This document shows, piece after piece, positions 909-7,404 of a stretch of DNA of 64,000 nucleotides. Position 1 is the first letter of the stretch. Each line of letters begins with the position of its first letter. A model generated the notes under the pieces. That model ran no database searches and was not told where the DNA came from. It saw only the letters and a program-made list of their open reading frames with translations. This DNA comes from Acidobacteriota bacterium (GTDB lineage: Bacteria; Acidobacteriota; Thermoanaerobaculia; Gp7-AA8). The DNA lies in contig JAJXWV010000057.1 in the NCBI GenBank assembly GCA_021781455.1, positions 1 to 64,000 of the forward strand, in the 5' to 3' direction. Both the position numbers and the translations under genes were made by a program.

Positions 909-2663
909 CTACCGCGTCGTCACTGGCGCCGGAGCGCTGCGCATCATCTCTACGAACTTTTTCGCAAGATCCCCGTCGAACTGCGTTCCGGCGCCACGGT
1001 AAATCGTCGCCAGCGCCACTTCCGGCGTGTCCACCGGCTGGTACGACTCGGGGCTGATCATCGTCTCGTACGCGTCGCAGATCTGCACGATGCGCGCGGC
1101 CAGCGGGATCTCCTCGCCGCGCAGCTCGTTGGGATACCCGCGGCCGTCCATCCGCTCGTGATGAGCGAGCACGCCCCGGGCGACCTCGGGGCCGAGCAAC
1201 GGCTCGACCATCGCCGCTCCGACGAAGACATGCTCGTGCAGGATGTTCAGCTCCTCGTCCGACAGCCCGCGCTTGCGGTACAGGCGCTCGTAGTCGAGCA
1301 CGCGCATGCCGACGTCGTGCACGATCGCCGTCAGCCTGACCGTCTCGGCGACAGCAGGCAGAAGGCCGAGGACGCGGAGGAACTGGTCGACGCGCGAGAC
1401 GACGAGATCGGTGTGGCGCTTGAGCACCGGGAACTTCGTGAAGTCCGGCTCGAGCAGCTTCTCGGCGGCGCGCGTGCGCACCCGTTGCAGCGCAGTGCGG
1501 GTCAGCGAGGCTTCCACGACCAGCTGCAGCTCGTCGAGGTTCGCCGCCAGCGTCTCGTGCGCAGCGCGGTCCGGCGCTTCGTTGAAGCCGATCGTCAGGT
1601 ACATCCCCTTCAGGTTTCCGACGATCACCGGCGCGGTGAAGACTTTCTGGATGTCCGACGAAGCGATGGGCGGCGTCAACAGTCCGAGCGGCGTCTGCGC
1701 GTTGGTTCTCACCGATCCGGCCGGCTCACCGCGCTTGGCCAGCCAGCCGCTGAGCTTCGACTGCAGGAAGTTGAGCGTCTCGCCGGTGAGGGTCGACTTC
1801 GAGACGATCTCCTGAATCCCCCCCATGTGGCCGAACGCGCTGAGGGAGACCACCACGACGCCGTTGATGGTGAGCATCTTCCGCAGCACTTCGCGCGCGG
1901 CGACGAGCTCGCCTTCCCCGATCGATTCCGCAGTCGGCGAGGCGAAGCGGCTCACCGCGGTGTGTGCCTCCATGATCAGCGACGCCATCGAGGTCGACGC
2001 CTCGCGTGGCAACGGCGCAGGAGGCGGAGTCTTGACCGCAGGATGTGGCGCGGTGCGCTCCGGCGGCGTGGCCGGCATCGGCGGCAGCGGCACGGTCTGC
2101 GCGATCGTCGGCGCGTTCTGCGTCTCGGCGGCAGCTTTCGCCGTGCCGTTCAACGACGGCGACGTGACCGTGACCGTGACCTGATCGTCCGCGTCGCTGA
2201 GCGTGATGAAGCGCTGGCCGAAGACGTTCTTGTTCGTAAACAGCGCCAGGATCCGGTCGGCGATCCGCTGGATCTTCGGGATGTCGTTCTGATCGAACGG
2301 CAGTTTGGCGGCCTTGTCGCGGCTGTCGATGACGCCGACCAGCTGCCCGCGAAAGTACATCGGCGCCGCAAGCATCCGGTCCGTCCCCGCGTCATAGAGG
2401 CGCTCGGAGAAGCGCGGCTCGGAGGTCAGGCCGTTCACGAAGAACGGCGTGCGCCCCTTCATGCAGCGGTCGATCAGCGCGTCGTTCTCGTCGGCTGCCT
2501 GGCGCACTCCGCCCGTGCGGAAGCCGAAGTCCGTGACCAGCTCGAACCGTGAGGCGCCGTCAAACAGGTAGAGCGCTGCCTTCGTTGCCCGGATTTCCAC
2601 CGCGCAGTCGTACAGGATCTCCTTGAGTTTCGGCCGAAGCTCCTCTACCTCGGGACGCACCAC
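909..2663 (-). CDS. GAF domain - linker - HD-GYP domain protein
   Basis: This 584-residue protein is a likely cyclic-di-GMP phosphodiesterase or related metal-dependent phosphohydrolase. The N-terminal ~150 residues form a GAF-like sensor domain. A proline/alanine-rich linker (about 185-235) follows, then a poorly characterised middle domain (about 240-390) that may be a second GAF. The C-terminal HD-GYP domain shows a RHTDLVV helix, AIVHDVG (the HD pair), ILHEH, AHHERMDGRGYP (the GYP signature) and CDAYETM. Metal ligands appear intact, so activity is plausible. The start is GTG (GTGGTGCGTCCC) without an obvious Shine-Dalgarno, so the N-terminus is uncertain. The 3' end abuts a strong palindrome. 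Confidence 0.85.
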   Translation of the reverse strand: MVRPEVEELRPKLKEILYDCAVEIRATKAALYLFDGASRFELVTDFGFRTGGVRQAADENDALIDRCMKGRTPFFVNGLTSEPRFSERLYDAGTDRMLAAPMYFRGQLVGVIDSRDKAAKLPFDQNDIPKIQRIADRILALFTNKNVFGQRFITLSDADDQVTVTVTSPSLNGTAKAAAETQNAPTIAQTVPLPPMPATPPERTAPHPAVKTPPPAPLPREASTSMASLIMEAHTAVSRFASPTAESIGEGELVAAREVLRKMLTINGVVVVSLSAFGHMGGIQEIVSKSTLTGETLNFLQSKLSGWLAKRGEPAGSVRTNAQTPLGLLTPPIASSDIQKVFTAPVIVGNLKGMYLTIGFNEAPDRAAHETLAANLDELQLVVEASLTRTALQRVRTRAAEKLLEPDFTKFPVLKRHTDLVVSRVDQFLRVLGLLPAVAETVRLTAIVHDVGMRVLDYERLYRKRGLSDEELNILHEHVFVGAAMVEPLLGPEVARGVLAHHERMDGRGYPNELRGEEIPLAARIVQICDAYETMISPESYQPVDTPEVALATIYRGAGTQFDGDLAKKFVEMMRSAPAPVTTR

Positions 2664-2742
2664 GGCAATTGTAAGGCGGGAGGCAGGCAGGTCCGTTCCG
2701 GAAAGACGGACAGTGATCGGGGAGTGCTTGATCGCGGGCTCG

Positions 2743-2838
2743 CCCCCTCATCCGCCTTCGGCACCTTCTCCCCGTTCCGTGTGGGGCAGGCTTTCCAGCC
2801 TGCCCTCCGAGGACAGGCTGGAAAGCCTGTCCCACACG
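2743..2838. repeat. Composite of two dispersed repeats (families F and C)
   Basis: Positions 2743-2773 carry the CCCCTCATCCGCCTTCGGCA repeat that recurs inside a coding region at 20678-20735. Positions 2778-2838 form a long inverted repeat around GTGTGGGGCAGGCTTTCC, with related copies at 8668, 9993 and 13527. It fills the gap between the selenoprotein gene and the HD-GYP gene, and the hairpin could terminate transcription of the former. Confidence 0.8.
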
Positions 2839-2844
2839 AGGGAA

Positions 2845-3072
2845 CTAACCCCGCATCGTGCGCAGCTTGTCGAGGATTTCCTTCTCGGTCGGAAACCGCC
2901 CTTCGTCGTGCTTCGAGAACACGCGCTTCTCGTCGACGGTCACGTTGAAGACCCCGCCGCTCCCGCGCACGATCTCGCTCTCGATTCCGAGCTCTTTCTT
3001 GATCTCAGCCGCCAGACTGGAGGCTCTCGGCAGGTAGTTTCAAACGCCGCAGTAATCGATGCGAATGTGCAT
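2845..3072 (-). CDS. SelW/Rdx-family selenoprotein (in-frame TGA read as selenocysteine)
   Basis: Read through one TGA (3042-3040), this frame gives a complete 75-residue Rdx/SelW-like thioredoxin-fold protein. It opens MHIRIDYCGVU, so the TGA falls exactly at the redox CxxU position (Cys8, Sec11). It is followed by the family's NYLPRA segment, GGVFNVTVDEKRVFSK and GRFPTEKEI. Length and motif order match SelW-like proteins, which are thiol/selenol redox proteins of poorly defined substrate. A hairpin with a GUC loop lies 23 nt after the TGA. An AGGA Shine-Dalgarno, supplied by the upstream heptamer repeat, sits 6 nt before the ATG. The alternative is a nonsense mutation in a CxxC homologue. 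The hairpin, the exact Sec position and the intact downstream frame argue against this. Confidence 0.85.
3007..3025 (-). promoter_or_regulatory. Candidate bacterial SECIS hairpin of the SelW-like gene
   Basis: On the mRNA strand, AGCC pairs with GGCU and CCA with UGG across a single mismatch, closing a GUC apical loop. The loop guanosine is 23 nt downstream of the UGA, within the spacing expected for SelB-dependent SECIS elements. The apex (CAGUCUG) resembles the classical Escherichia coli formate dehydrogenase SECIS apex (CAGGUCUG). Function is inferred from structure and position. Confidence 0.65.
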
Positions 3073-3075
3073 GTT

Positions 3076-3161
3076 GAGTCCTGAGTCCTGAGTCCTGAGT
3101 CCTGAGTCCTGGGTCCTGATTGCTGAGTCCCGGTCCCACTCAGCACTCAGCACTCAGCACT
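3076..3161. repeat. GAGTCCT heptamer array with inverted ACTCAGC units (family A)
   Basis: Six near-perfect GAGTCCT units (3076-3117) are followed by three ACTCAGC-type units (3139-3161). On the minus strand the array lies in the leader of the selenoprotein gene and provides its AGGA ribosome-binding site. It separates that gene from the PP2C gene. Confidence 0.85.
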
Positions 3162-3164
3162 TCG

Positions 3165-3935
3165 TCACACAGCCTGGATCAGCACCGCCGTGATGTTGTC
3201 CATGCCGCCGTGCTCGTTGGCGGTGTCGATCAGCTCCTGACACGCCTTCTCCAGGTTGCCGTCGTTCGTCATGACCAGGCGAAGGATGTCGTCTTCCGAA
3301 ACCATGCCAGTCAGGCCGTCGGAGCAGAGGAGGAACATGTCGCCGTGCTTCAGCTCGACCTCGGACGCGTCCGGGTTGACCTGGAGCGCGCCGCCGAGGG
3401 CTCGGGTGATGACGTTGCGCAACGGGTGCTTCTCCGCTTCGGCCTCGGTCAGCATGCCGGCCTGCACCTGCTCGAAGACCCAGGAGTGGTCGCTGGTGAT
3501 CCGGGAGAGCTTGCTGTCACGGATGAGGTAGACGCGCGAATCGCCGACGTGCGCAACCGACATCGTGTCGGCGTCGGCGAAGCAGGCCACGATGGTCGTG
3601 CCCATGCCGCGCAGCCGCGCGTCCTTGCGCATCGCCTCGAGCACGCGCGTGTTGGCCAGGCGCACCGCGGCCATCAGCTTGTTCGTGGAGCGCTTGTAGT
3701 GCTCGTCGTAGGCGTGCGGCCAGGTGCCGTCGTCTTCCTTGGTATTGAGGATGAACTCGGAGATCGAGTCGACGGCGATGCGCGAGGCGATCTCGCCGGC
3801 AGCGTGGCCGCCCATCCCGTCCGCGACGAGGAACAGCCGGGCGTCGCTCTCCACGAGAAACGAATCCTCGTTGTGCTGACGCTGCCGGCCAACATGAGTG
3901 AGACCGTATGCCTTCAGCTCCATCCCCCGTTTCAC
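3165..3935 (-). CDS. PP2C-family (PPM) serine/threonine protein phosphatase
   Basis: This 256-residue stand-alone PPM catalytic domain removes phosphate from Ser/Thr residues using a two-metal centre. Metal and catalytic motifs are present in order: RQHNEDS (about 18-25), VADGMGGHAAGE, AHVGDSRVY, LLCSDGLTGMV and GGMDNITAVL. The GTG start shown overlaps the upstream DnaJ stop as GTGA. An ATG four codons later (3923), with AAGGGG upstream, is an equally good start and fits the family's MELKAYGLTHVG opening. It is the last gene of the rodZ - HEAT-like - DnaJ/TPR operon. A partner kinase is not visible here. Confidence 0.92.
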   Translation of the reverse strand: MKRGMELKAYGLTHVGRQRQHNEDSFLVESDARLFLVADGMGGHAAGEIASRIAVDSISEFILNTKEDDGTWPHAYDEHYKRSTNKLMAAVRLANTRVLEAMRKDARLRGMGTTIVACFADADTMSVAHVGDSRVYLIRDSKLSRITSDHSWVFEQVQAGMLTEAEAEKHPLRNVITRALGGALQVNPDASEVELKHGDMFLLCSDGLTGMVSEDDILRLVMTNDGNLEKACQELIDTANEHGGMDNITAVLIQAV

Positions 3936-4576
3936 CCCTTCTTGAACAGGGTGAACCCCTTACCCGCCTCTGGCCGTCCTTGCCGCAGTTCCGCGAGCGC
4001 TGCCTGGAGCTCGAGGTTGTCGCGATCCCACTTGAGCGCCTCGTCGAGGTATCGCTCTGCTTTGGCGTTGAGTCCTGCGCGCTTGCAGATCAGGCCGGCG
4101 TCCTTGAGATAGGCCGGATTGACCGGATCCCGCTGCACGGCGCTCTCGATGGCCTGCACGGCCTGGCGCGTCATCGACGGAATCCGCGCTGCTGCCAGCG
4201 CGAGATAGTGAAATGCCTTCGCGTCCTGGTTGTGCTTGACCGCCAGGTCGAAGTTCTCGTACGCCGCCAGGAAGTCCTTGGCCCTGAAGGCGTCGATACC
4301 CTTCTTCATGTAGGCCTTGGCGATCTGGGCGAAGTCGACCGTGCCGCTGTTCGATCCGCCGGAGATCTCCGAATCGTGCTGCTTGCGGCGGGCGGGGTTG
4401 GTCAGGACGTTGACGGCTTCGGTCAGGGTCTGGAAGTGGCGTTCCGCTTCCGCCTTGTCGTCTCCCTTGTACCGGTCGGGATGATTCTCGCGAGCGAGCT
4501 GGCGAAAACGATCACGGATCTGCTGATCGCTCGCCGAGCGCTCCACGCCGAGAACGTCGTAGTAATTGATTTTCAT
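3932..4576 (-). CDS. J-domain protein with C-terminal TPR-like repeats
   Basis: Residues 1-65 form a DnaJ domain (NYYDVLGV opening, HPDRYKGD carrying the essential HPD tripeptide), which stimulates DnaK ATPase activity. The rest (about 95-205) consists of helical TPR-like repeats. There is no Gly/Phe region, zinc finger or DnaJ C-terminal substrate domain, so this is a class III J-protein that probably recruits Hsp70 to a particular client. It is translationally coupled to the PP2C gene (4-nt overlap) and lies 6 nt after the HEAT-like gene. Confidence 0.9.
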   Translation of the reverse strand: MKINYYDVLGVERSASDQQIRDRFRQLARENHPDRYKGDDKAEAERHFQTLTEAVNVLTNPARRKQHDSEISGGSNSGTVDFAQIAKAYMKKGIDAFRAKDFLAAYENFDLAVKHNQDAKAFHYLALAAARIPSMTRQAVQAIESAVQRDPVNPAYLKDAGLICKRAGLNAKAERYLDEALKWDRDNLELQAALAELRQGRPEAGKGFTLFKKG

Positions 4577-6583: not shown

Positions 6584-6728
6584 GGTTGCGCGGTTACGCG
6601 GTTACGCGGTTGCGCGGTTGCGCGGTTGCGCGGTTGCGCGGTTACGCGGTGGCGCGGTTGCGCGGTTACGCGGTGGCGCGGTTACGCGGTTGCGCGGTTG
6701 CGCGGTTACGCGGTGGCGCGGTGGCTCG
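6584..6728. repeat. 8-bp tandem array, unit GCGGTTRC, about 18 copies
   Basis: About 145 bp consist of the units GCGGTTAC, GCGGTTGC and GCGGTGGC in mixed order with no interruption. The array ends about 45 bp upstream of the rodZ start codon. Apparent reading frames through it (RLRGYAV-type) are low-complexity artefacts. Confidence 0.95.
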
Positions 6729-6742
6729 GTTGTTGCGCGGTG

Positions 6743-6852: not shown

Positions 6853-6930
6853 CTCGCAAATCCGCGCGGGACGGGGTTCTGCGAACCACGTGACGGCCGG
6901 CGGACGTGCAGACGGCATAAAATGCAGTCG

Positions 6931-7404
6931 ATGGACGACGATCTGAAGAAGCTGCTCGAGACGATGCGTGAGGAGAACTCTGCAGCGCATCACGAAACTC
7001 GTGCTCAGGTCGCGGCGCTGGACGCAAAGCTCGACTCCACCGCCGAACGCCTAGATACGAAGATCGACTCCACCGCCGAACGCCTCGACGCAAAGCTCGA
7101 CTCCACCGCCGAACGCCTCGATGCGAAGATCGACTCCACCGCCGAGAATCTTCGCCGTCATTTCGATGTGACCACTGAAGCAACGAACAGCAATATCCGC
7201 CTGGTCGCCGAATCTGTCACCCAGCTGACCGACGAGATGCGACGCGGGTTTGCCGCTGCCGATAAGAAGTTCGACACGACCACAGCGGAAACTCAGGCCA
7301 TGATCAAGTTCTCCCACGCCAACCTTGACCGCCGCCTCATCACGCTCGAGGAAACCGTCGCCGACCTCCAGACCCGTGTGGAGCGTCTCGAAACCACGCA
7401 CTAG
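6931..7404 (+). CDS. Coiled-coil protein, window paralogue family copy 1
   Basis: This 157-residue, highly charged, wholly helical protein of unknown function belongs to a family with copies at 8751 and 9424. Shared features are an N-terminal MDDDLKKLLETMREE..AAH block, a central LVAESVTQL segment, and the C-terminal TQAMIKFSHAxLDRRL...ADLQTRVERLE leucine-zipper-like coil. Copy 1 alone has four tandem 11-residue units (DSTAERLDxKx), encoded by a 33-bp repeat. The start is set by alignment with copy 2; an ATG three codons earlier is possible. It has no signal peptide or membrane segment. Its stop overlaps that of the convergent lhgO. Confidence 0.75.
   Translation: MDDDLKKLLETMREENSAAHHETRAQVAALDAKLDSTAERLDTKIDSTAERLDAKLDSTAERLDAKIDSTAENLRRHFDVTTEATNSNIRLVAESVTQLTDEMRRGFAAADKKFDTTTAETQAMIKFSHANLDRRLITLEETVADLQTRVERLETTH
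7021..7152 (+). repeat. 33-bp tandem repeat (4 units) inside the coiled-coil gene
   Basis: The four units each encode an 11-residue hendecad, D-x-K-[LI]-D-S-T-A-E-x-L. They differ only at a few synonymous or conservative positions, indicating recent in-frame expansion that lengthens the coil. Confidence 0.9.

Follow-up and report, generated by a model that had tools for sequence, protein, structure and literature searches.

The bacterial SelW-like selenoproteins (PF10262 Rdx, TIGR02174 CXXU_selWTH, NF041051 SelTWH_Campy) are the closest described counterparts of the gene reported here, and they are small single-domain proteins with a CxxU motif and a SECIS element just after the UGA codon. 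The bacterial SECIS is located in the coding region, in contrast to that of eukaryotes, which is located in the 3′ UTR. To our knowledge, no cellular function has been established for the bacterial SelW-like proteins. As the preliminary description of this locus recognized, such proteins are not new, and they have been in the literature since 2005-2006. SelW-like selenoproteins are reported from marine bacteria of the Sargasso Sea (PMC1088965), and with 427 sequences they are the most numerous selenoprotein family in the marine bacteria of the GOS data (PMC2398784), while CxxU Rdx proteins are listed among the prokaryotic selenoproteins (PMC9312934). A 2006 table lists four acidobacterial selenoproteins, which belong to three families (PMC1794560), and three selenoproteins are known in Occallatibacter riparius (PMC12013277). 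A literature search of partial coverage found no published description of the gene in Thermoanaerobaculia.

Reading frame, family and predicted fold

The window, by which we mean the whole 64,000-nucleotide stretch of DNA that was analyzed, carries a selW-like (Rdx) gene on its minus strand at positions 2845..3072, with an ATG start at 3072 and 75 codons followed by a TAG stop. With TGA translated as U, the product of 3072-2845 is MHIRIDYCGVUNYLPRASSLAAEIKKELGIESEIVRGSGGVFNVTVDEKRVFSKHDEGRFPTEKEILDKLRTMRG. The sole internal TGA of the frame (3040..3042, minus strand) lies at residue 11 in the CxxU motif, is conserved in homologues and is read here as selenocysteine (Sec). A 75-codon frame with exactly one TGA at the CxxU position had been claimed beforehand; translation bears this out and assigns it to the minus strand, where the peptide motifs named at the time (YCGVU, GGVFNVTVDEKRVFSK and GRFPTEKEI) are all present. 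We put the probability that this is a genuine bacterial SelW/Rdx selenoprotein gene, with Sec at UGA codon 11, at about 97%. The analysis shows the open frame, the family, the predicted fold, the machinery genes, a UGA and a hairpin that are both conserved, and purifying selection.

When a Cys is placed at residue 11, the protein matches the Pfam family PF10262 (Rdx) with 67.7 bits (gathering score 22.6, E 1e-18), and it also exceeds the cut-offs of two NCBIfam profiles for selW-like proteins, TIGR02174 (57.8 bits, cut-off 34.2) and NF041051 (91.8 bits, cut-off 88). The alignment to the Rdx family that had been suggested as a check hence places the protein within it by all three profiles, and a phmmer search of PDB sequences found SelW-related proteins and MIEN1. 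The gene is a solid case of those that are lost, as had been pointed out, by ORF callers that stop at TGA, and SelW genes were likewise missed by annotation in epsilon-proteobacteria (PMC4607533). A mechanical ORF of 153 aa overlaps it on the plus strand (2623-3084). This is a real gene, and one easy to overlook, for a small redox protein of the SelW/Rdx family that is predicted to contain selenium through the reading of one UGA as Sec.

An AlphaFold2 model built from 41 homologues, with Cys substituted for Sec, has a mean pLDDT of 92.3. It predicts a first beta strand (E3-8) followed by the CxxU motif (C8-x-x-U11), a helix (H14-28), three further strands and a C-terminal helix. The best Foldseek match of the model in the PDB is 2fa8 (E 5.9e-8, TM 0.90), the top matches are the SelW-related proteins 2fa8, 2obk, 2ojl and 3dex, and mouse SelW (2npb) is found at rank 23. 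The protein is accordingly modeled with a thioredoxin-like fold and is predicted to fold as SelW does.

A SECIS-type hairpin 3′ of the UGA

The SECIS-type hairpin GCCUCC-AGUCU-GGCGGC (3008..3024, minus strand) has a stem of six positions, which begins 18 nt after the U of the UGA, and a 5-nt loop. In the family it occupies codons +6 to +11 after the TGA with the form GCC-(G/U)CC-[AGUCU]-GG-CGGC. Among 59 sequences placed in one register, 319 of the 354 stem cells are paired (90%). Replacing each codon at random with a synonymous one used in the same genes gives 254.7 ± 5.8 (72%), and none of 1000 draws exceeds 275. In a 47-row alignment 91.1% of the stem cells pair, five of the six pairs are changed on both sides in a compensatory manner, and the covariation score is 0.284, against 0.123 with shuffling and no more than 0.084 when the alignment is slid. 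Every Ser at the loop codon is encoded by AGT (28/28) and every Gly by GGT (18/18), while elsewhere in the same genes these codons have a background use of 7 and 12%, respectively. RNAalifold with a short alignment predicts the upper three pairs alone. The hairpin of the window keeps the AGUCU loop and has one U.C mismatch, which is common to other sequences with Ser there; its energy is unexceptional by itself (13% of the synonymous alternatives fold as well), and its folding in isolation is uninformative. Because of this mismatch and energy, the case for a SECIS is made by the family as a whole, in which covariation and synonymous-codon constraint support a putative SECIS-type hairpin directly 3′ of the UGA.

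Selenocysteine decoding in the source genome

According to the preliminary description, the gene implies that the organism decodes UGA as selenocysteine, and the source genome (4.88 Mb, 90 contigs, listed as 100% complete) does contain the full machinery. Profile searches recover selA (472.6 bits), selB (370.4 bits, above the curated cut-off) and selD (355.1 bits), and a tRNA-Sec with the anticodon UCA scores 71.1 bits, so that all four components proposed for a search are found. Further selenoproteins of the genome were checked via selD and the molybdopterin enzymes. The selD gene itself has an in-frame TGA at the catalytic site, GGUACKLGQ (L043 1468-2538, G000:C30), and a formate dehydrogenase-like gene (L169; G000:C23, around 94915-96102) has one in ARVUHGPT, within the longer motif ARVUHGPTVASLAATFG. 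The strong SECIS-like hairpin 3′ of the latter TGA (−14.9 kcal/mol, z −4.1) has the loop AGUUU, which is of the same kind as the AGUCU of the selW-like gene. Since SelD and the formate dehydrogenase also carry an in-frame TGA, the organism likely has at least three selenoproteins. A genome-wide scan with SECIS model R1 returned the selW-like gene and one weak match (C38:23517, E 0.185), which was rejected as a selenoprotein site and taken as chance as its TGA is out of frame within a long open reading frame. The same scan of the whole genome failed to recover the selD and formate dehydrogenase sites, and it is therefore no selenoprotein census.

These results bear on whether the TGA could be a stop codon that is read through, or a codon reassigned to another residue such as Trp or Cys. 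The frame would be open whatever residue the TGA encodes, but TGA also terminates many homologous Rdx frames, the SelA/SelB/SelD/tRNA-Sec(UCA) set is complete, and two other genes of this genome, those of SelD and formate dehydrogenase, have TGA where Sec is known to occur. We consider readthrough or reassignment highly improbable.

Conservation of the UGA and distribution in Acidobacteriota

The Sec codon is TGA in all 62 of the fetched Sec-type homologues and in all 80 named loci, two sets that partly overlap; one of the two search patterns behind the 80 loci asked for a Cys codon, so the search design left room for Cys forms. Hence the relatives, whose codon at this position had been named as a check, carry TGA there and not random codons, with Cys in a separate related clade. 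The nearest named loci (about 70-82% identity) are from Acidobacteria gp7 and Thermoanaerobaculia MAGs, and other relatives are found in Myxococcota, Planctomycetota, Eisenbacteria, Betaproteobacteria, Zixiibacteriota, Krumholzibacteriia, Gemmatimonadota and one actinobacterial MAG. A search of plasmids returned distant homologues alone. In comparisons with 12 distinct sequences of close relatives, the region 3′ of the TGA has a dN of 0.11-0.29 and a dS of 0.53-0.90, a pattern of purifying selection that persists in the codons downstream of the TGA. A pseudogene, in which a nonsense mutation or a sequencing error has altered the second Cys codon of a CxxC Rdx gene, would give the same picture in a single genome by one TGC/TGT to TGA change. 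But every fetched Sec-type homologue, whether from Acidobacteriota or from one of several other phyla, has TGA at this codon; 3′ of it dN stays well below dS, and the synonymous sites are constrained as a hairpin. As independent genomes share the TGA and the purifying selection, this explanation is already refuted.

Within the phylum, 93 of 297 genomes have a PF10262 match, and 85 of the 297 (counted from tables) have an Rdx copy with one internal TGA. As selB is above the curated cut-off in 194 of the 297 genomes, Sec decoding is common in Acidobacteriota; the claim that it is unusual for the likely phylum of the organism does not hold, and acidobacterial selenoproteins were already tabulated in 2006 (PMC1794560). 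Neither the SelW-like family nor the use of selenocysteine is unusual in Acidobacteriota. The two go together, in that selB is present in 81 of the 85 genomes with a TGA-containing Rdx (Fisher p 2e-13, not corrected for relatedness), and the four that lack it (G039, G080, G127 and G287) are listed as 90, 75, 64 and 75% complete. Six Acidobacteriota genomes (G061, G019, G128, G169, G201 and G295) have a Cys-type Rdx, and these form one clade apart from that of the window with 100/100 support, in a tree built on few columns, many of whose forks are unresolved. The separate Cys clade agrees with a remark made in 2006 that in organisms which use Sec, Cys homologues of the SelW-like selenoproteins are few or absent (PMC1794560). 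In some Acidobacteriota genomes the standard copy is accompanied by another, divergent Rdx paralogue of the Sec type, represented by the loci L049, L061, L064 and L065, which has an insertion ahead of its C-terminal helix.

Genomic context

Upstream of selW on the minus strand are genes for a PP2C-type Ser/Thr phosphatase (3165..3935; PF13672, E 4.2e-20) and a DnaJ-domain/TPR protein (3932..4576; PF00226, E 5.5e-20), which are in conserved order, and the downstream neighbor, also on the minus strand, encodes a protein with GAF and HD domains (909..2663; PF13487, PF01590). The order HEAT-like gene and DnaJ/TPR, PP2C, selW is seen in all 17 loci in which neighbors were found, of which 13 are distinct because four repeat a contig already in the set, and in the 13 distinct close loci PP2C is directly upstream of selW. 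A GAF/HD gene is downstream of selW in six fetched loci, and rodZ is further upstream wherever the fetched stretch extends that far. Searches with the same queries did not detect PP2C/DnaJ neighbors in the more distant lineages. The start codons of the relatives are ATG, GTG or TTG, and several come right after the PP2C stop, which suggests that translation of selW may be coupled to that of PP2C. It is unlikely, on balance, that in Thermoanaerobaculia-like Acidobacteriota the Sec form of the SelW-like protein has a functional tie to the PP2C and DnaJ/TPR proteins encoded next to it and could not be replaced by a Cys form. Such a tie, for which the basis is the gene order in the 13 distinct close loci, might for example provide a redox input to Ser/Thr dephosphorylation.

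Several repeats surround the gene. On the minus strand, the selW start is immediately preceded by eight tandem copies of the heptamer TGAGTCC (3075-3130), and a possible ribosome-binding site, AGGACTCAAC (3073..3082, minus strand), lies immediately 5′ of the ATG at the edge of this repeat. Because the putative Shine-Dalgarno AGGA is at the edge of the heptamer array, slippage could change selW expression. A second array (CACTCAG) is found at 3137-3161, with a similar unit at 468-497. Just 3′ of the selW stop is an inverted repeat (2778-2838) with 30-nt arms that are 93% complementary. Its core, CAGGCTTTCCAGCCTG, is itself a small hairpin and has 147 copies in the genome (73 forward, 74 reverse), while the reversed control never occurs, which is why the inverted repeat looks like a REP-like dispersed element. 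Further along the window, an octamer tandem array of GGTTGCGC (18.6 copies, 6584-6732) is just upstream of rodZ, and a 33-base in-frame repeat (7021-7145) lies within an ORF (6922-7404, plus strand) for an apparent coiled-coil protein. Matches to microRNA families of Rfam in L032 and L001 were rejected, as they are below the gathering score and driven by palindromes.

Relation to described systems

The reading of this gene as a SelW/Rdx-like selenoprotein, first put forward in the preliminary description, is supported by the Rdx family, the sel machinery, the SECIS-type hairpin and the conserved TGA. We propose that when the ribosome arrives at the UGA of codon 11, the SECIS hairpin just 3′ of it would recruit SelB with Sec-tRNA(Sec), and that insertion of selenocysteine would create the CxxU active site of a small thioredoxin-fold protein. 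In the cytosol, this pair of Sec and Cys would most likely serve as a thiol/selenol redox center, with selenenylsulfide and reduced forms. With 85 of the 297 genomes sampled carrying it, the SelW-like selenoprotein is a common one in Acidobacteriota, and no Cys form was seen in this part of the family. The conserved PP2C-DnaJ neighborhood offers a modest lead to the role of the bacterial SelW-like proteins.

Among described systems, mammalian selenoprotein W (2npb) and MIEN1/Rdx12 (2ljk) belong to the same superfamily and share the CxxU/CxxC position but are distant, with 25-34% identity. The CxxC SelW-related structures (2fa8, which is Agrobacterium Atu0228, and 2obk, 2ojl, 2oka, 3dex and 2p0g) have the same fold as the model (query TM-score 0.82-0.92, rmsd 1.0-2.7) and detectable sequence similarity to the selW-like protein, yet they are from organisms of other phyla, and the alignments of 2fa8 and 3dex show Cys at the Sec position. 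The bacterial SelW-like selenoproteins have the same CxxU, the same small single domain and the same placement of the SECIS just after the UGA, and the gene described here differs from them only in its lineage, in Acidobacteriota near Thermoanaerobaculia gp7, and in its PP2C/DnaJ neighborhood.
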